A model generated the notes under the pieces. The model was given only the letters and a program-made list of their open reading frames with translations, did no database searches and was not told where the DNA came from. A stretch of DNA of 14,235 nt from a bacterium HR27 (GTDB taxonomy: Bacteria; Chloroflexota; Chloroflexia; Thermomicrobiales; Thermomicrobiaceae), in the NCBI GenBank assembly GCA_002898975.1, contig BEID01000005.1:1-14235 (forward strand), read 5' to 3'. Positions 1,265 through 14,155 of this stretch are shown piece by piece (position 1 is the stretch's first letter; the number at the start of each line of letters is the position of its first letter). Position numbers and translations under genes: made by a program.

Positions 1265-2944
1265 TCATTGGCGGGCGAGCGACTCGGCCAGGGAACGCAC
1301 GGCGTGCAGCATGCCGATATAGGCGAAGGTGCAAGCCGGTCCGATCGTCGAACCCGGTCCGGGATAGGTGCGACCCATCACCGACGCCGTCGTGTTCCCG
1401 GCCGCGTACAGCCCAGGGATCGGTTGCCCGTCCTCGCGGAGGACGCGGGCCCACTCGTCAGTCAGGAGCCCACCTTTGGTGCCGAGATCACCCGGATAGA
1501 TGGCCGTCGCGTAGAACGGCGGGCGATCGAGCGGCCCGAGGTTCGGATTCGGCCGCACTCTGGGGTCCCCGTAGAACCGGTCATAGGCACTGTCGCCGCG
1601 ATGGAAGTCTTCGTCCTTGCCAGCCGCCGCCATGCGATTAAAGCGTTCCACCGTGCGCTCGAGCCCATCCGGGTCGATACCGCAGCGGAGCGCGAGTTCG
1701 CGCAGCGTCTGCGCCCGGACGAGGAATCGATCGCTCGTCATCGAACGCGGTGTGAGCAGCGGCGGGACGAAACCGAATGGATAGAAGCGACGGTGCTTGG
1801 AATCGATGATCAACCACGCTGGGATCGCTGGAACTTCGCGATGCCGCTCGTACTGGGCATGGCCGCAATCGACGTAGGATGCCGACTCGTTCATGAAGCG
1901 CTGGCCACTCGAGTCGACGATGATCCCGAAGGGGAAGGAGCGTTCCCAGAGGACGAAGAGCGGTCGGCCGTTCGGCATGATCGCCGTCGGGCCCCACCAG
2001 GCATCGTCCATGAGCGCGAGAGCCGCACCGATGGCCTGGGCAGCGCGAATCGCGTCACCGGTGTCGCTGGGGGCAGCGCTCGTCCATTCCGTGGTGATCG
2101 GGTGGGGGTGGTAGCGCTCGCGCATCTCCCGGTTGTGCGCGAATCCGCCAGCCGCCAGCAACACACCGCCCCGCGCACGGATCCGGACCGGGCGACCCTG
2201 GTGCTGCACCACTGCACCGACGACGGCTCCGTCCTCCGTGAGCAGCTCGACCAGCGGACTCTCCAGCCAGATCGGAATGCTCCGCTGGAGACAAAGCGAC
2301 AGCAGTTGACCGATGAGCGAGGCACCCAGCGTGAGCGGCACACGGCCGCGCAGGCGATAGGACAGGAGTCGCCAGACGACACGAGCTGCCGTCAGGGCTC
2401 CGTTCGGTGTCCGGAGGACGAGGGCGAACTGACTCGCTTCGTTCGTATGGAGTGGCACGCTCGGCAAATTGGGATACCGGTGCAAGCGAGCCAGCCAGAC
2501 CCCCAGTTGCCTCCCGTCGAAGAGCGCTCCCTCGATCGACCGGCCGAAGGTCGAACCACCCGGCTTCTCAGGATAATAATCCGGATAGCCGAGCGACGGT
2601 CGCCAGCGGAAACCCAGTCGCTCCAGGAACTCGACCATTTGTGGCCCGTACTCGAGGAAAGCGCGCCGGCGTTCTGGCGAGGAGGCTGGTCCGACCTCCC
2701 CGATCACCTCGTTCATGTACCGGAGCGCTTCTTCGAACGAATCGCGCAAGCCAGCTCGCCGGCTGACCGGGTTGTTGGGGATCCAGAGCCCCCCACCTGA
2801 CCAGGCAGTCGTCCCACCCACGGAGGCGGTCTTCTCCACCACGAGCGGCTCGAAGCCGTGTTCTTTGACGACCAGTGCACCGACGAGCGCTGCGCCTCCG
2901 CTGCCGACGATAAGGACATCCGTCTGATAATCGAAATCCGGCAT
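1265..2944 (-). CDS. FAD-dependent dehydrogenase of the 3-ketosteroid delta-1-dehydrogenase (KstD)/fumarate reductase flavoprotein family
   Basis: The product is a 559-residue flavoprotein likely to introduce a C-C double bond into a keto-substrate. The N-terminus carries a dinucleotide fold (VLIVGSGGAA, 10-19) and the next FAD contacts EKTASVGGTTAWSGGG (37-52). KstD-like positions are visible: Y-D-Y-Y before PEKPGG (120-130), NESASY (352-357) and TYPGPGSTIGPA (526-537). The last holds the Y-x-x-x-G pair that, in Rhodococcus KstD, contacts the steroid A ring (Y487/G491). AAGN (514-517) closes the FAD site. ATG 2944 is chosen because GGGGAGGG lies just upstream; an in-frame start at 3049 would add 35 unconserved residues. 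The gene lies upstream of the E1 alpha gene on the same strand, separated by 259 bases. The family includes enzymes for non-steroid substrates, and no steroid catabolism genes are nearby, so the true substrate is unknown. Confidence 0.85.
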   Translation of the reverse strand: MPDFDYQTDVLIVGSGGAALVGALVVKEHGFEPLVVEKTASVGGTTAWSGGGLWIPNNPVSRRAGLRDSFEEALRYMNEVIGEVGPASSPERRRAFLEYGPQMVEFLERLGFRWRPSLGYPDYYPEKPGGSTFGRSIEGALFDGRQLGVWLARLHRYPNLPSVPLHTNEASQFALVLRTPNGALTAARVVWRLLSYRLRGRVPLTLGASLIGQLLSLCLQRSIPIWLESPLVELLTEDGAVVGAVVQHQGRPVRIRARGGVLLAAGGFAHNREMRERYHPHPITTEWTSAAPSDTGDAIRAAQAIGAALALMDDAWWGPTAIMPNGRPLFVLWERSFPFGIIVDSSGQRFMNESASYVDCGHAQYERHREVPAIPAWLIIDSKHRRFYPFGFVPPLLTPRSMTSDRFLVRAQTLRELALRCGIDPDGLERTVERFNRMAAAGKDEDFHRGDSAYDRFYGDPRVRPNPNLGPLDRPPFYATAIYPGDLGTKGGLLTDEWARVLREDGQPIPGLYAAGNTTASVMGRTYPGPGSTIGPACTFAYIGMLHAVRSLAESLARQ

Positions 2945-2990
2945 GGTACCCTCCCCTGCTTCACGACGCGTGCGCGACTGCGTGTTCCGT

Positions 2991-3019
2991 ACTCTGCCAG
3001 CGATCGACCGATTCGTCAA
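2991..3019 (-). promoter_or_regulatory. Possible promoter of the KstD-like gene
   Basis: On the minus strand TTGACG (3014-3019) is followed by a 17-base spacer and CAGAGT (2991-2996). The -35 is good but the -10 matches only 3 of 6. It would start transcription about 40 bases before ATG 2944. The 2945-3198 interval is the shared control region of this gene and the divergent serA transcript. Confidence 0.35.
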
Positions 3020-3108
3020 CCGAGGCGACTGCGAGCTCCCGATCCGCACGGTCGGACCGAGCCTTTCTCTCGACCTGCGCCATGGAAAAAAGGAGTATCG
3101 TCTGACTC

Positions 3109-3136
3109 TTGCTCACGTCGCATTTTCCCGTATACT
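3109..3136 (+). promoter_or_regulatory. Promoter of the leader ORF-serA transcript
   Basis: A TATACT -10 (3131-3136, 5 of 6 to consensus) is preceded at 16 bases by TTGCTC (3109-3114), which matches only TTG of the -35. The start site would be near 3143, giving about 56 bases before the small ORF and about 255 bases before serA. This unusually long leader fits post-initiation control of serA. Confidence 0.5.
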
Positions 3137-3198
3137 ACAGTGAGCGCCTCATGGCGCGACCGCACTCGATGCCGAACCGTAAGGAGGGAAAGGGTACG

Positions 3199-3432
3199 AT
3201 GAACCAGTACACCGCCTCACGAGTCGACCAGCGTGTCGTCTTCTACACCGCGGCGGTGGGCTTCGGTTCCGGTTCGGGTTGCGGTCGCGGCTCCAGTAGT
3301 CCCTCCGGTTCCGGTCGCAGCGGCTCCGGTCGCCACGGAGACGCTGTGACGATCCGTTCGCTCACTGTCACCGTAAGACGTGAACCGGAGGGGATCCATG
3401 GAACGGCAGATTCGACTCGCACTCGATCTTGA
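3199..3432 (+). CDS. Gly/Ser/Cys-rich leader peptide upstream of and overlapping serA
   Basis: This is a 77-codon ORF I do not recognise as a known protein. ATG 3199 is preceded by AAGGAGG (3181-3187, spacing 11) and AAAGGG immediately after it. In-frame starts further upstream exist (for example ATG 3151) but lack such a site. From residue 21 to 47 the peptide has 11 Gly, 9 Ser and 1 Cys out of 27. These are the amino acids produced from the SerA pathway. The rest of the peptide is ordinary (Thr/Val/Arg-rich). The ORF ends at TGA 3430-3432, 35 bases past the serA start in another frame, so ribosomes translating it pass over the serA ribosome binding site. The most attractive reading is a regulatory leader peptide. 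Alternatives are a genuine small protein or a chance ORF over a low-complexity stretch. It is longer than classical leader peptides. Confidence 0.55.
   Translation: MNQYTASRVDQRVVFYTAAVGFGSGSGCGRGSSSPSGSGRSGSGRHGDAVTIRSLTVTVRREPEGIHGTADSTRTRS
3301..3392 (+). promoter_or_regulatory. Anti-Shine-Dalgarno pairing that could sequester the serA ribosome binding site
   Basis: CCCTCCGGTTC at 3301-3311, inside the Ser/Gly codons of the leader ORF, is perfectly complementary to GAACCGGAGGG at 3382-3392. A U-G pair (3300/3393) extends the helix to 12 bp. The downstream arm contains the whole serA Shine-Dalgarno (GGAGGGG, 3387-3393), five to eleven bases before ATG 3398. A second copy of the anti-SD core, TCCGGTTC at 3268-3275, could pair with 3382-3389 instead. 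Two smaller stems lie in the loop: CTCCG/CGGAG (3324-3328/3336-3340) and GTGAC/GTCAC (3346-3350/3367-3371). There is no U-tract after any stem, so translational control fits better than transcription termination. Confidence 0.55.
3306..3335 (+). repeat. Two-copy 15-base tandem repeat encoding SGSGR-SGSGR in the leader ORF
   Basis: Bases 3306-3320 and 3321-3335 agree at 12 of 15 positions and are in register with the reading frame, so the peptide reads SGSGRSGSGR. Related GGTTCCGGT units occur just upstream (3265-3273). This may have arisen by slippage; it multiplies both Ser/Gly codons and copies of the anti-SD core. Confidence 0.7.
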
Positions 3433-5611
3433 CGGTGTTCTGACGGAGCACCCGGCGCCGCTGGCCCAGGCGGCCAACCGAGCGCTGGGTATGCAGCTAC
3501 CCGATCACGCATTCGTCGATTCCCATGGCTGCAACGTCCCGGAGGCCGTCCGCCTCTGGGTCTACGGCCCCGGCGGGCCAGCGACGCTGCTCGATCCGGC
3601 ACCGAACGCACCGCAGCTTCTGCGCGACGTGCTGCGCGTCCTCGGGAGCGATCGCGTGGTCATTATCACCGCGCGGCCGGAACGCTCGCGCGCGACGACC
3701 GAGGAGTGGCTGCAGCGACACGGCTTCCCACGCTGCCGGATCGTCTTCACCGACGACAAGGTGGTGGCCGCCCGTGAACTCGGCGTGACCCATGCCATCG
3801 AGGACAGTCTGCGGCACGCGACACGGTACGCCGAAGCTGGTATCACCTGCTTCCTGTTGACGAACGAGCCCGCACCTCCCGGCGAGTCGCCGTTCGTCGT
3901 CCGCGTGCCGGACCTGACCGCTGCTGTCCAATCGGTGCTGCGCCTCGCTGGGGCACCGCTCCCGACCACCAGCAGCGACGGGGTCCTGCCGCGTCGCCGG
4001 CGGATCGTCGTGAGCGACGTGATCGACCAGCGCGCCCTCGAGCGGCTGGCCGCTGAGGCCGAGGTGATCGAGGTCGATGGTCGCGACAAGGAAGCGCTCT
4101 ACGCAGCACTGCGCGACGCGGATGCCCTGATCGTCCGCAGCGAGACGCAGGTCACCCGCGAACTCCTCTCCCACGCACCGCGTCTCCGCGTGGTGGCACG
4201 TGCCGGTACCGGTGTCGACAACATCGACCTCCAGGCAGCGACCGAGGCGGGTATCCTGGTCCTCAACGCACCGGGTGCCAACGCGGTCTCAGCGGGCGAA
4301 CACACGATCGCCCTCATGCTCGCCATCTCGCGCTGCCTCATCGAGGCGAACGCGACGACGCACGCCGGACGCTGGGAACGCAAGCGCTTCCGCCCGTTCG
4401 ACCTCAAAGGGAAGACCGTCGGCATCGTCGGACTCGGTCGTGTCGGTTCGGTCGTTGCCCAGCGGCTCCGTGCCTTCGAGGTCCGCTTGCTCGGGTATGA
4501 CCCGTACATCACGCGCGAGCGCTTCGCTCAGCTGGGCGTCGAACCGGTCGACTACGAGACGCTGCTCGAGCACAGCGACATCGTCACCTTCCACGTGCCG
4601 GCGACACCGGAGACCCGCCATATGCTCGATGCCCGCGCGATCGCTCGGATGAAGCGCGGTGCGATCGTCATCAACTGTGCGCGCGGCGAGATCGTCGACG
4701 TACACGCGCTCGCGGAAGCGCTGAAGAGCGGGCATATCGCGGCAGCCGGTGTCGACGTGTTCCCGGAGGAGCCAGCCTACGAGAGCCCGCTGTTCGGTCT
4801 CCCGAACGTCGTGCTCACGCCCCACATCGGTGGCTCGAGCCGAGAAGCGCTCGAGGCGGTGGGCGAGATCATCGCCACGACCACGCTGGCGGCCTTGCGG
4901 GGTGAGGTCGTCCCCAACGCGGTCAACCTTCCGGCCGCATCGCTCCACGCACCGGAACTGCTGCGACTGACGCAGGTGGCCGAGGCAGCTGGCCACCTCA
5001 TCGCGGTGCTCCAGCCAGCCCGGCCATCGAGCTTCCTGGTAACCGTGCACGGCCAGGTTGCACCGGATATCGCCGAGCATGTGACCGCCGTGGCACTCGC
5101 TGCCGCGCTCCGGCGCTGGACAGTGCGACGGGTGACACCCGTCAACGCGCGGCTGGTCGCGCAGGAACTGCAGCTCTTCGTCGACGTGCGTTTCGATACC
5201 GGCGCCTCGACGGTACCCGAGTTCAACTTCGAGGTCGATGGCGACCCGCCACATCACGTCATGGTGCGCTGGGACCACCGCCACGCCGGCATCATGGAAG
5301 TCGACCGCTTCTCGCTCGAGCGGCCGCTGGCCGGCCACATGCTCATCACGCATCACCGCGATCGACCCGGCATCATCGGCCGCATCGGGACGATTCTCGG
5401 CCGCTACGATGTGAATATCGCGGGCATGCAGGTCGGGCGCCGGGAGCGCGGCGGCGAAGCGATCATGGTGCTGAATGTCGACGACCCGATTCCGGAAGCA
5501 GCCTTGAACGAGATCCTGCAGGTGCCGGACGTGTGGACAGCCTACGTCGTCTCGCTCCCGGAGCCTGTCGACGCACCGGCACCCTTCGCACCGGCCCTGG
5601 CCGACGACTGA
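3398..5611 (+). CDS. serA: D-3-phosphoglycerate dehydrogenase with N-terminal HAD phosphatase-like domain (fusion)
   Basis: SerA oxidises 3-phosphoglycerate to 3-phosphohydroxypyruvate with NAD, the first committed step of serine synthesis. The 737-residue product has two parts. Residues 1-185 form a HAD-type domain: DLDGV (10-14, nucleophile D10 and D12), T91 in IITARP, K121 after FTDD, and acidic E135/D136 in AIEDS. From about 201 a full SerA follows: GLGRVG NAD motif (345-350), D368, ARG with catalytic R429, DVFPEEP (453-459, E458) and PHIGG with H476. An intervening ASB-like domain (about 515-640) and an ACT domain (about 647-718, RDRPGIIG) complete it. The SerA part alone has the usual length (about 530). 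ATG 3398 is chosen for GGAGGGG spaced 4 bases away; a GTG at 3380 lacks such a site. Expression is probably controlled by the overlapping leader ORF. The HAD domain resembles 5'(3')-deoxyribonucleotidases and could be a phosphoserine phosphatase, which is untested inference. It ends 10 bases from the convergent glycosyltransferase gene. Confidence 0.95.
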   Translation: MERQIRLALDLDGVLTEHPAPLAQAANRALGMQLPDHAFVDSHGCNVPEAVRLWVYGPGGPATLLDPAPNAPQLLRDVLRVLGSDRVVIITARPERSRATTEEWLQRHGFPRCRIVFTDDKVVAARELGVTHAIEDSLRHATRYAEAGITCFLLTNEPAPPGESPFVVRVPDLTAAVQSVLRLAGAPLPTTSSDGVLPRRRRIVVSDVIDQRALERLAAEAEVIEVDGRDKEALYAALRDADALIVRSETQVTRELLSHAPRLRVVARAGTGVDNIDLQAATEAGILVLNAPGANAVSAGEHTIALMLAISRCLIEANATTHAGRWERKRFRPFDLKGKTVGIVGLGRVGSVVAQRLRAFEVRLLGYDPYITRERFAQLGVEPVDYETLLEHSDIVTFHVPATPETRHMLDARAIARMKRGAIVINCARGEIVDVHALAEALKSGHIAAAGVDVFPEEPAYESPLFGLPNVVLTPHIGGSSREALEAVGEIIATTTLAALRGEVVPNAVNLPAASLHAPELLRLTQVAEAAGHLIAVLQPARPSSFLVTVHGQVAPDIAEHVTAVALAAALRRWTVRRVTPVNARLVAQELQLFVDVRFDTGASTVPEFNFEVDGDPPHHVMVRWDHRHAGIMEVDRFSLERPLAGHMLITHHRDRPGIIGRIGTILGRYDVNIAGMQVGRRERGGEAIMVLNVDDPIPEAALNEILQVPDVWTAYVVSLPEPVDAPAPFAPALADD

Positions 5612-10232: not shown

Positions 10233-10285
10233 AATCAGGAACGTGAGTGGACGCGGGGAGCGAACAGCGAAAGGGTTACCGGCAG

Positions 10286-11422
10286 ATGCACAGTGCTGAC
10301 GTCGTGATCGTTGGGCTCGGAATCATGGGCACGGCCGCTGCAGCGGCATTGGCCCGGCGTGGTCATCGTGTACTGGGCCTGGAACAGTATCCGCCGTTCC
10401 ATACCCGTGGGTCATCGCATGGGAAAACGCGGATCATCCGCGAGGCCTATTTCGAATCACCGGAGTATGTCCCACTCGTGCAGCGAGCGTACGTGCTGTG
10501 GGAAGAACTCGCCGAGCGGACGGGGCGGACGCTCTTGCGAGTGACCGGCGGCATCAGCCTGGGGCGCCCGGAGAGCCCGTTCATCACCGGGGCACGCGAG
10601 AGCGCGCTCCGGCACGGACTCGCGCACGAACTCCTGGATGCAGCCGAAGCGAGGAAGCGTTTCCCAGCACTCCGTGTTCCCGATGATTTCGTCGCGCTCC
10701 TCGAGGGCAGGGCCGGGATCCTGTTCGCTGAGGAGTGCTGGCGGGCGTTCATCGACGATGCGGTGGCGCACGGTGCCCGACTGCACTTCGGAGTTCGAGT
10801 GACCGGTTTCGCGCTGGAAGGGAGCGGCGTCGCGATCGAGACGAGCGAGGGGGCGATTCGGGCGGAACGCCTTGTCGTGACGGCTGGTCCGTGGACACCT
10901 GAGGTACTCGCGTCGCTGGGACTGCCGCTGACGGTTCGGCGCGTCCTGGTGGTGCACGTCGAGCCACGGCGACGCGAGCTGTTCGAGTTGGGGCAGTTGC
11001 CCATCTTCTTGCTCGACGTGCCGGAGGGCGAGTACTATGGCTTCCCGTGGCTCCCGGAACAAGGGGTCAAGTTCGGTCGGCATGATGATGGCGAAGCGTG
11101 CACGGCCGAGACGGCACGGCGGGAGGTGCGCGATGACGAGATCGCCCACATGCTGGCGGTGCTGGGCCGGTATCTTCCCGAGGCCGCTGGGTCGGTGCTG
11201 ATGCCGGTGACGTGTCTCTACACGATGACGCCCGACGGGCATTTCGTCCTCGATCGGCATCCGGAGTGGCCACACGTCGCCTTCGCTGGCGGCTTTTCCG
11301 GTCACGGATTCAAGTTCGCGCCGGTGATCGGCGAGGCGCTGGCGGATCTGGCGATCGAGGGGCGTTCCGAACTGCCGATCGGTTTCCTCGGAGCAGGCCG
11401 GTTCGGGACACGGCATCAGTAA
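10286..11422 (+). CDS. Monomeric sarcosine oxidase / N-methyl-L-tryptophan oxidase family flavoenzyme
   Basis: This 378-residue enzyme oxidises a secondary amine such as sarcosine or an N-methyl amino acid with O2, releasing formaldehyde, the demethylated amino acid and H2O2. The N-terminal FAD fold is [10 protein letters not shown] (6-15). Further family residues are R49 and R52 in [11 protein letters not shown]262 in VKFGRH (the equivalent of the oxygen-activating Lys of MSOX), C310 in TCLYTMTPD (the covalent FAD attachment Cys), and H340/K343 in FSGHGFKF. Length matches the family (370-390). ATG 10286 is placed directly before the FAD fold; only a weak AAAGGG about 10 bases upstream supports it, and an in-frame start at 10247 would add 13 residues. 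The choice between sarcosine and N-methyltryptophan cannot be made by eye. The 3' end overlaps the convergent Qng1 gene by 7 bases. Confidence 0.9.
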
Positions 11423-12399
11423 AAGCGTGTCCGGGTACGGTGGTACGGCGGTGCATCGGGCGGCAGCGACTGGCCGAGTTGCCAGAGGGCCCAGTCGACC
11501 TGCCAGGCGGCCGCTGGTTGGCCACGGGCGTGCAAGCGAGCGACGAGTTCGTCGACCGTACAGACGGTCGCCGCCCGGATTTCGACTTCCTCGGGAGAAC
11601 CGGCCAGGATCTCCTCGCGTGCGTCGATGCGGCGTGCCAGGGTTTCCTCGTAACGGAGCGCACCGTAGAAGCGGAGTACCTGCGGCAGCTTGTAATCGGC
11701 GAAGGCGGTGAGTGCATCGAGGTCGTGGAAGGAGCCGAGTTCGCGACCGTGAAAGGCGCCGGCGAGGTCGGTGCAGAGGAGTTGCGCACGCTTGTAGAAC
11801 GGTACGACGAGACCGTCGTACGACGCGACGTCGCGAAACGAGGGGAAGACCTCAGTGACCAGACGCACCAGCGTGGCGGCGCTCCCGTCTGCACGGCGGA
11901 CGAGGTGTGCGAATTGGCCGTCGCACGTGGTGAGAAGTCCGCGTGCGACTTCGCGGACGTGCTCGATACGCCAGGTGAGCAAGGGGATCGTTCCCTCGCC
12001 CGTGAACAGGTCGGCGATCTGGTCGTCGGTGAGCTGGGCGAGGTACCCGGCATCGTAGAGCGGGTGCCCGCGTTCCAGTGCGCGTCGCAGGGCAGCTGCG
12101 AGGGCAAAGTAGCCATCGTAGAGCTGGTCGCGATAGCGGATACGCCAGCGCGGTTCCCCCCAGAAGCAGAAGTTGAGCGCGTCGAGGAGGAGTACATAAT
12201 TGGCGGTCTGCTCGGGCGTCCCACGCCAGTGGAGCGGGTGATCCCAGTCCGGGAGATCGGGGAGCGGGCTGGGAAGAACGGAGAGGATGCGCTCGATTCC
12301 AGCCGGATCGAGCTGCACCCAGCGGGCACGCTGGAGGACCATGCGCGTCGCAGCGCGGATGCCGAGAGGGTCGGGCACGGTAGGGTATGCAGACCGCAT
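11416..12399 (-). CDS. qng1: Queuosine 5'-phosphate N-glycosylase/hydrolase, queuosine salvage protein (DUF2419)
   Basis: Qng1 releases the base queuine from queuosine 5'-monophosphate so that it can be put back into tRNA by a transglycosylase. The 327-residue product matches this family along its whole length: [13 protein letters not shown] (10-22), [16 protein letters not shown] (65-80), FPSFRD (185-190), [12 protein letters not shown] (201-212), [14 protein letters not shown] (230-243) and EVEIRA (271-276). As I recall, the Sphaerobacter thermophilus homologue has a crystal structure, which fits the proposed lineage. The start at 12399 lacks a clear Shine-Dalgarno. It is kept because homology begins within ten residues; a GTG seven codons in is an alternative. 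It is transcribed divergently from the TPR gene and convergently with the sarcosine oxidase-like gene. No tgt or queuosine synthesis genes are in the window. Confidence 0.93.
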
Positions 12400-12474
12400 C
12401 GAGACGCTCGCATTCCGTGGCGCGACGACGCCGAAAATGGGAGGATCCGGCTACGTGGGCGCCGAACCCGCTCG

Positions 12475-12482
12475 AGTATACT
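12475..12482. promoter_or_regulatory. Palindromic -10 shared by the divergent Qng1 and TPR genes
   Basis: AGTATACT (12475-12482) reads the same on both strands, so each strand has a TATACT -10 (plus 12477-12482, minus 12475-12480). Transcription would start near 12489 rightward and near 12468 leftward, giving leaders of about 35 and 69 bases. Neither side has a recognisable -35 at 16-18 bases. This is the only promoter-like element in the 124-base interval. Confidence 0.45.
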
Positions 12483-12523
12483 GTCGGTACGATGCCGCTC
12501 GCTGCCGTTCATGGGGGATGAGG

Positions 12524-14155
12524 ATGAGCGCCATTCCGCTGGCCGAAGCTGTGGAGAAGGCTCGCCGCGCGATCGACGAGGCGAGATGGAGCGAGGCGAA
12601 AGCGATCGTCGAGGCGGTCCGGTCGGCTGCACCCGAGGCAGCGACGACGCAGCTTCTCTGGGGCCGGATCCTGCTCGAGGAGGATGCCGAGGCGGCCGAG
12701 CGTGTCTTGCTGCGGGCGATCGAGATCGATCCGGAGGATGCTGAGGCGTGGGCGTTGCTGGCAGAGGCACGGCGACGCCGAGGGGAACGCGAGACGGCGC
12801 GGACGCTGCTGCAGGTGGCTTGGGAGTGCGCTCCCTGGCAGCGGGAGTATGCGGAGCGGCTGGCCGCCTGGTATCGCGAGGACGGCCAAGACGGACAGTT
12901 GTGGCTGTCCAGAGCGGCGCTCGCCGCCCTGTACGTGAGCCAGGGGTGGTGGACACGAGCAGGCGAGGAATGCCGTACGCTGCTCGAAGAGGGAGGCGAG
13001 CGGTGGGATCTCCGCCAACGCCTCTGTCTCGCCCTCTGGTGGCTCGGCGCGCGCGACGAAGCAGCGGCGCAGGCGGAAGGGATGCTGGCCGAGCGGCCGG
13101 AGGCGGTCGGCGCGCTGATCGTCGCGGCACTGGCCGCACGCGAGCGCGGCGATGAGGCGACCGCCCGTCAGCATTGCGAACTGCTCTGGGCGCTCGATCC
13201 TTTGGGGGAAGCGGTCACCCGGTACGTACCGGAGGAGCGGTGGGAAGAGCGCGCGTGGCTCGGGGTAGCCGAACCGGTGCTGGTAGAGGAACGGTGGACA
13301 GTGCCGTCAGTGGGAGAGACAGCGCTTCTGTGGGAGCTGCCGACGGACGAGGAACTCGCGGCTGCGCGGCCTCCGGATGCGGAGCTGGAGGAGGCGTTGG
13401 CGTTCGAGATCGGTCTTGCGGCTGAGGAGGCTGCGACCGGTGCTGTCGGCGCGGCCGAAGCGGAGAGCGAGCCGGTGGAGGCGGGAGTACTGGAGCAGTG
13501 GGAACTGCCGAGCGAGGAGGAGATCGAGGCAGCACGGCCGCCCGCTGAAGTCGAGCGTGGGTGGACGAGCATGCTCGAAGAGTTGGTATCGAGCGGAATC
13601 GAGCCACTGGCGATCGAAGGCCTGGAATCCGCCGAAGAAGCGCCGGCCGGTGCAGCGCCGCCGGGAGCCGAGGTCGTTGCCGAGACCGTGCTTCCCGGGA
13701 TGACGGCGGAAGCGGCGACGCCGGAGGCAGTAGCCGGAAACGAAGAGGCGGTGGCCGAAGCCGGGGAGATGGCGACGGAAGCTGCGGAAGCTGCGGCCAC
13801 TTCCGTGGAGCGCACGGCTGTCGAGGAGCCGGTTGTCTCAGTCAGTGCTGCTGCAGCGGAGGAGAGCCAAACTCGTGACCGTGGTGAGGAGCTGATCACG
13901 TCGGCAGAAGGGGAATTCGAGCGGCTTCTGGCGACGGGTGCGGTGGAGGAAGCAGTGCGGCTGGCGCAGCGCGTGGTGCATCGCGGTGGGGAGGAAGCGG
14001 AGGCGCTGATTCCGCACCTGGAGCGGTTGGTCGCCGAAGGGGGGCGAGGAGCACGGCAGGCGGCGATGGCAGTGGGTGCCTTCTACCGGCGGCGCGGAGA
14101 GACGGGGCGGGCATCGCGATACTACGAGTTGGCGTTGCGGCTGCGCAGCGAGTAG
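12524..14155 (+). CDS. Tetratricopeptide-repeat protein with an acidic Ala/Glu-rich central region
   Basis: This is a 543-residue scaffold-type protein without a catalytic motif. Residues about 5-235 form TPR-like helical pairs, for example AERVLLRAIEIDPEDAEAWA (58-77) and ARQHCELLWALDP (214-226). Residues about 240-455 are low-complexity, rich in Ala, Glu, Pro and Val. A motif occurs there twice, W-E-L-P-(T/S)-(D/E)-E-E-(L/I)-x-A-A-R-P-P at 270-284 and 326-340. The end (about 460-543) returns to TPR-like helices (FYRRRGETGRASRYYELAL, 520-538). There is no signal peptide or membrane segment. ATG 12524 has GGGGGA about 6 bases upstream; an in-frame ATG two codons earlier is possible. TPR proteins usually assemble complexes, but the partner is unknown. 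A terminator hairpin follows at 14183. Confidence 0.8.
   Translation: MSAIPLAEAVEKARRAIDEARWSEAKAIVEAVRSAAPEAATTQLLWGRILLEEDAEAAERVLLRAIEIDPEDAEAWALLAEARRRRGERETARTLLQVAWECAPWQREYAERLAAWYREDGQDGQLWLSRAALAALYVSQGWWTRAGEECRTLLEEGGERWDLRQRLCLALWWLGARDEAAAQAEGMLAERPEAVGALIVAALAARERGDEATARQHCELLWALDPLGEAVTRYVPEERWEERAWLGVAEPVLVEERWTVPSVGETALLWELPTDEELAAARPPDAELEEALAFEIGLAAEEAATGAVGAAEAESEPVEAGVLEQWELPSEEEIEAARPPAEVERGWTSMLEELVSSGIEPLAIEGLESAEEAPAGAAPPGAEVVAETVLPGMTAEAATPEAVAGNEEAVAEAGEMATEAAEAAATSVERTAVEEPVVSVSAAAAEESQTRDRGEELITSAEGEFERLLATGAVEEAVRLAQRVVHRGGEEAEALIPHLERLVAEGGRGARQAAMAVGAFYRRRGETGRASRYYELALRLRSE

Follow-up and report, generated by a model that had tools for sequence, protein, structure and literature searches.

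The classical leader-peptide attenuators (trp, his, leu, and ilv) possess a leader ORF rich in codons for the product of the pathway and operate by switching a terminator. In translational attenuation of the ermC type, a ribosome stalled on the leader ORF frees a sequestered Shine-Dalgarno (SD) sequence. The portion of one account that deals with ermC describes it as being without amino acid specificity (PMC2965389). According to the sections on the LEU element of actinobacterial leuA in Seliverstov et al. (2005, PMC1262725), the leucine-codon run of an upstream ORF pairs with the leuA SD; the same sections report that mutations of the leucine codons were without influence on regulation, for which reason the authors favoured a protein-binding site. 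Serine biosynthesis has an element of its own in the alpha-proteobacteria, the serC element (RF00517) of the serC-serA genes, for which the lines given to it in PMC1273637 mention two stems and suggest that a hairpin sequesters the ribosome-binding site (RBS). As far as the relevant passages of their descriptions go, the rare-codon leader ORF rbfL of Staphylococcus aureus affects how translation of the following gene is initiated (PMC13009471), and in sinR of Bacillus subtilis pausing at serine codons inside the gene is the starvation sensor, a property of TCN and not of AGC/AGT codons (PMC3862929). We found no earlier leader-peptide attenuator for serine in searches of an open-access library, in agreement with the preliminary description of the DNA studied here, which knew of no serA attenuator of such design; subscription papers could hold an earlier prediction. 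The word serine is absent from the main texts of the leader-peptide papers PMC1262725, PMC2965389, PMC8079986, and PMC4833913.

In the present study, we analysed a stretch of 14,235 nucleotides (the window), in which a serine-rich leader ORF runs into serA (Table 1), and we consider it probable, from the comparison of sequences and from RNA modelling, that this leader is a serine-responsive translational attenuator of serA in Thermomicrobium-type bacteria. Like the classical attenuators and the Mycobacterium Cys leaders (as far as the latter are treated in the cited part of PMC1262725), the locus carries a leader ORF rich in codons for the product; the classical systems switch a terminator, whereas the window's sequence holds no terminator-like site at the serA leader. 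With the ermC type, in so far as that account extends, it would share a stall that frees the SD, the difference being that the stall would fall on serine codons, which also form the predicted anti-SD. The rbfL leader, as portrayed in the passages at hand, differs in concerning arginine and a biofilm regulator, with no biosynthetic feedback. As in the LEU element, within the limits of its description, a run of product codons is predicted to pair with the SD that serves the biosynthetic gene; the LEU element, however, concerns leucine and leuA in Actinobacteria and includes a conserved pseudoknot, whereas the present locus concerns serine, stands ahead of serA in Thermomicrobium-type bacteria, and has an ORF overlapping the gene. 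The serA leader would be a system that works like the LEU element without being a member of it. By analogy, the reportedly ineffective leucine-codon mutations of the LEU element may be taken as a warning for the serine attenuator reading.

Table 1. Positions, within the window, of the features discussed in the text.
Feature	Positions	Strand	Basis
-10-like box TATACT, presumed promoter	3131..3136	+	kept across orthologs
Leader ORF SD TAAGGAGGGA	3180..3189	+	sequence; strong SD
Serine-rich leader ORF	3199..3432	+	ATG 3199, stop 3430-3432, 77 codons
Gly/Ser-rich stretch, leader residues 21-47	3259..3339	+	residue count
24-nt block GGCTCCAGTAGTCCCTCCGGTTCC (G-SSS-P-S-G-S)	3289..3312	+	congeneric alignment
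Anti-SD strand, made of Ser/Pro/Gly codons themselves	3300..3311	+	predicted pairing
serA SD arm GAACCGGAGGGG	3382..3393	+	predicted pairing
serA, phosphoglycerate dehydrogenase with a fused N-terminal segment, HAD-like by motif	3398..5611	+	TIGR01327, Pfam

The preliminary description had noticed an ORF with its own SD ahead of serA and overlapping it, and this is borne out: the 77 codons overlap serA (ATG 3398) by 35 nt, out of frame, and the serA SD, GGAGGGG, is located at 3387-3393, inside the leader. Equally correct was its count of 21 Gly, Ser, or Cys among residues 21-47, GFGSGSGCGRGSSSPSGSGRSGSGRHG (Gly 11, Ser 9, Cys 1), and a content of at least 21 such residues is unique among the 20,253 stop-free 27-codon stretches of the window in six frames. 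The 24-nt block of Table 1, with the core Ser codons 32-34, 36, and 38 and the motif CCAGTAGTCCCTCC at 3293-3306, is identical in all six congeneric sequences. The window's leader has matches in eight database proteins, all of them keeping SSSPSG, and one is entered by its source as an "Uncharacterized protein" of Thermomicrobium roseum; four leaders from a protein database that add to the 19 of the family described below (P0004, P0005, P0007, and P0008) keep SSSPSGS. A plasmid search with 3100-3450 gave no match. An additional exact CCAGTAGTCCCTCC in a related genome (G004, C1:714037) was considered as a second use of the motif and rejected, there being no Ser-run leader at that place.

Upstream of the leader, 67-102 nt 5' of its ATG, a promoter-like box recurs as TATACT in 14 of the 19 orthologs found in the family and as TATCAT in the remaining 5; a weak -35 candidate, TTGCTC, can be seen by eye at 3109-3114, and a consensus scan reported no promoter-like site. 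Since the box stands 5' of the leader in all 19 sequences, a serA transcript that starts downstream of 3330 looks unlikely.

Full serA orthologs were found in five of the six other genomes of the genus, and the family search of 21 genomes yielded 19 orthologs, which come from six genera (g1-g6, g1 being the genus of the window); the two genomes without a full ortholog (G003, 54% complete, and G010, 87% complete) gave weaker paralogs only. The comparable ORF in relatives that the preliminary description called for is present throughout: all 19 orthologs have an out-of-frame Ser-rich ORF, in the same relative frame, over the serA start, beginning 151-205 nt 5' of that start, ending 26-41 nt inside serA, and preceded by an SD-like site of the GGAGG, GGAG, or GGGGA type (judged by eye). 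The overlap with serA, previously regarded as an awkward feature, turns out to be a kept one. It would also agree with a leader that is simply a fixed translational damper or coupler, acting by occlusion or by backward reinitiation of leader ribosomes and sensing no serine; this explanation appears very improbable, as it leaves the conservation of Ser and the switches between TCN and AGY codons described below unexplained.

The maximum Ser content per 20 codons is 8-14 in all 19 family leaders versus 0-9 in the orthologs scored from the rest of the order (28 orthologs, 23 of them scored; two lacked the anchor motif and three contigs ended too early). The value of 9 came from two loci, G037, where the sequence overlaps serA, and G047. 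Among 69 more distant serA loci the maximum was 6, and among 20 further loci (18 from other families of the class and 2 from another family of the order) it reached 8 once, in G109, against 4 and 1 in the two congeners of that genome; an SD-like motif was required in the 69-locus and 20-locus scans and not in the order-level scan. The locus L138 of G047 has, 5' of serA, a serA-overlapping ORF with 9 Ser per 20 codons (SIPSSSNRTSSVSRS), which is either a chance occurrence or a remote case.

Within the 19-leader alignment, only Met1 and one Ser column are invariant, two further Ser columns and one Gly column are nearly so, and most other residues drift. Ser occupies columns 46, 30, 50, and 48 in 19, 18, 18, and 15 of the 19 sequences, respectively, in surroundings that vary from genus to genus: the cores read SSSPSGSG in g1, SSSSGRGASSPSGSS in g5, SSPSSRGSGSS in g6, SSSSSRGSSSPSSSSSGS and SSSSCRSSSSSSSSC in g4, SSSSSRWSHSSSSTSSSS in g2, and SSSMSRSRTSSKSSSSSSSRSS in g3. 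At the level of sequence, this documents both a conserved leader and its serine content, and a serine-sensing leader for serA appears well supported. In the 27 Ser-richest residues, Ser numbers 8-16 across the 19 leaders, Gly falls from 6-10 in g1 to 4-5 in g5 and g6 and to 1-3 in g2, g3, and g4, and no leader has more than one Cys there. The preliminary description had proposed joint sensing of seryl-, glycyl-, and perhaps cysteinyl-tRNA, with the alignment of relatives as its check. Such a proposal is understandable from the 11 Gly and 1 Cys of the window's stretch, from the Gly that persists in g5 and g6, and from the general knowledge that SerA feeds all three amino acids; the seryl part of it is well supported, while the fall of Gly in g2, g3, and g4 and the scarcity of Cys, against a Ser content that stays high, leave joint sensing with very little probability, and on the family alignment and the counts we rejected the sensing of Gly and Cys alongside Ser.

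The codons point to the amino acid itself. Column 30 is encoded by TCG (6), TCC (4), AGT (4), TCT (2), and TCA (2), column 46 by AGT (14), AGC (1), TCC (3), and TCT (1), column 48 by TCC (12) and AGT (3), and column 50 by TCC (11), TCA (4), TCT (2), and AGC (1). A switch between TCN and AGY takes two base changes, and therefore the amino acid Ser is what seems to be kept, as read from a single protein alignment of low-complexity sequence. The leaders prefer Ser codons that serA seldom uses: in five genera, AGT makes up 20-40% of the Ser codons of the leader versus 0-6% of those of serA; g3 uses TCA for 54% in the leader versus 9% in serA, and its AGT share of 2% versus 16% runs in the opposite direction and counts against the attenuator reading. 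Values of dN/dS for the leader are mixed, ranging from 0.13 to 1.34 (g3: 0.17-0.43), so that the peptide as a whole seems to be under no clear constraint, which fits, and does not prove, a role of the Ser codons and the RNA.

If the RNA alone mattered, the ORF would be incidental to an element read by a small molecule, as in a riboswitch, or by a protein, as suggested for the serC element. The latter resembles the present locus in its serine biosynthesis genes and in the presumed hiding of the RBS, and the lines on it in PMC1273637 note no leader peptide; the 24-nt block, invariant within the genus, would agree with such a reading. The serC element nevertheless differs in its two stems, and Rfam models searched at the gathering score on both strands of the window, including RF00517, T-box, and known riboswitches, gave no match. 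Moreover, the leader RNA differs between genera, whereas the frame, the SD, and the Ser codons stay, and among congeneric sequences the indels inside the ORF measure 3, 6, or 12 nt, single-base indels being noted upstream of it. We therefore regard an RNA element of this kind as the least probable of the explanations considered.

Base pairing offers a possible means of action, which the preliminary description had not noticed. The strand 3300-3311 (UCCCUCCGGUUC), within the codons of Ser34-Pro-Ser-Gly-Ser38, is predicted to form 12 consecutive pairs, one of them G.U, with 3393-3382, which holds the serA SD and its flank. Complementarity between leader and serA SD is likewise documented in all 19 sequences, with calculated duplex energies of -17.5 to -34.3 kcal/mol, and RNAalifold, without being told of the stem, recovers it both in a set of 11 well-aligning sequences and, with 7 pairs, in the full set of 19. 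Across these 11 sequences, 99.2% of the cells pair, versus 35-71% when the pairing is slid by 1-3 columns. Covariation is weak on its own: 7 of the 11 pairs never vary, the 2 pairs that change on both sides are matched by 80 of 500 shuffles, and the covariation score is matched by 43 of 500. An alignment-free test across genera combined the Ser half of each leader (nt 61-130) with the SD regions of all six genera in turn; leaders assigned to their own SD gave the lowest summed energy of all 720 assignments, the own SD being the single best partner only in two of the six genera (g4 and g6). One foreign SD was slightly better for each of the g1, g2, and g5 leaders, and all five foreign SDs were better for g3. 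Shuffles of single sequences were not convincing either. With codon-shuffled leaders as a control, only 8 of the 19 leaders came to 3/60 or less; leaders shuffled synonymously often pair equally well, since TCC and similar Ser codons look like an anti-SD in any case.

In the free RNA, the serA SD is predicted to be hidden (unpaired probability below 0.25) at 37 C in 17 of the 19 sequences, the exceptions being g4_G014 (0.60) and g2_G007 (0.40). Recalculation of 12 sequences at 68 C (g1, g5, and g6) or 55 C (g2, g3, and g4) left ten below 0.25, and the same two stood at 0.29 and 0.43, respectively. We then simulated a stall by placing a 29-nt ribosome footprint codon by codon and counting a gain of at least 0.15 in unpaired SD as opening. 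With the A site in the core Ser run the SD is predicted to open partly, and it mostly closes again after the ribosome has passed. Opening with the A site on some Ser codon occurred in 18 of the 19 sequences, with highest values of 0.25-0.90; it is partial, the best value being only 0.25-0.34 in five of those 18. No codon opened the SD in g4_G014, and g5_G017 and g5_G016 responded weakly at Ser, which accounted for just 1 of the 6 and 1 of the 7 codons that opened the SD, respectively. Ser represents 46% of the opening codons versus 21% of the rest, neighbouring codons not being independent, and the mean opening was higher at Ser codons than at others in 16 of the 19 sequences, with 2 showing the reverse and 1 a tie. 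Some of this enrichment is inherent, since TCC and similar Ser codons belong to the pairing strand.

Taken as a working scheme, the serA attenuator would function as follows. In the free mRNA, the Ser-codon run would pair with the serA SD and hide it. As long as seryl-tRNA is plentiful, ribosomes would traverse the run, the stem would re-form behind them, and the unstalled leader ribosomes would continue across the serA start, all of which would keep serA initiation low. Once seryl-tRNA becomes scarce, a ribosome would wait on the Ser run with its footprint over the anti-SD strand, the serA SD would become free, and SerA would be made. We infer that the leader responds to a shortage of seryl-tRNA through the translation of serA, the same Ser codons doubling as sensor and sequestering strand.

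The same leader could instead act on transcription, e.g., if Rho terminated transcripts within the leader or early in serA whenever serA goes untranslated. The classical leaders of this kind do act on transcription, and the Mycobacterium cys leaders, in the sections devoted to them, lack conserved terminator hairpins, Rho having been suggested (PMC1262725). We nevertheless judge control of transcription unlikely and prefer control of translation, because a scan of the window's sequence in 2900-3600 found no terminator-like site; furthermore, the leader crosses the serA SD into serA in all 19 orthologs, so that no untranslated stretch remains in which a terminator could lie, and the SD pairing offers a direct alternative.

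With some reserve, we lean towards regarding the serA leader as the first ribosome-mediated attenuator specific for serine, built to a minimal design in which the sensing codons would themselves be the lock, the unstalled ribosome over the serA start would supply a second lock, and the LEU element would be a convergent relative. The sensing codons could be the lock because Ser runs such as AGT-CCC-TCC and TCC-TCC are near-complements of the Shine-Dalgarno sequence. If this is true, a serine case, in Thermomicrobium-type bacteria, joins the leader-peptide control of amino-acid synthesis, suggesting that amino acids with anti-SD-like codons (Ser and Leu) favour a one-strand design. Since the sensor codons would be the SD-blocking strand, the design is simple enough for reporters, and it raises a general point that can be tested, namely which amino acids can employ their own codons as an anti-SD.

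Other genes of the genus were searched for comparable leaders. Five serS and six glyA loci showed no serA-like leader, their best 20-codon Ser counts being 7 and 6, respectively, and the serS counts resemble, by eye, the out-of-frame reading of a neighbouring gene. A Trp-run leader was absent from five trpE loci. Upstream of leuA, all five loci (L148-L152) have a conserved short ORF with Leu codons (MIHGISSLLQLSLSRPRRGA... or MFYRVSSLLRLSLSRPRGGA...), starting 164-176 nt 5' of the leuA match, which is perhaps a leucine leader.

The controlled gene itself is a phosphoglycerate dehydrogenase, matching TIGR01327 over residues 202-720 of 737 with 528.8 bits (cut-off 454) and carrying the Pfam domains 2-Hacid_dh, 2-Hacid_dh_C, and ACT. 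Its N-terminal segment of about 200 residues (3398-3991) matched no Pfam model at 0.001, and its PDB matches were not significant (a CBS-domain protein, E 0.36, and a 5'(3')-deoxyribonucleotidase, E 0.64); the motifs DLDGVLTE and TARPE give it what we take to be a HAD-like look. In 25 of the 28 orthologs outside the family, within the order, the alignment starts at serA residue 1-6, and the segment might contribute a phosphatase step.

Further along the window, 11416-12399 on the reverse strand encodes a Queuosine salvage protein, which matches PF10343 with E 3e-83 and, at a threshold of 0.001, none of the NCBIfam families. The forward-strand gene at 10247-11422 is an FAD-dependent oxidase, for which the N-methyl-L-tryptophan oxidase model of NCBIfam scores 412 bits against a cut-off of 257, and the open frame at 12287-14155, also on the forward strand, encodes a TPR-motif protein (PF14559) whose later half is, by eye, rich in Ala and Glu.
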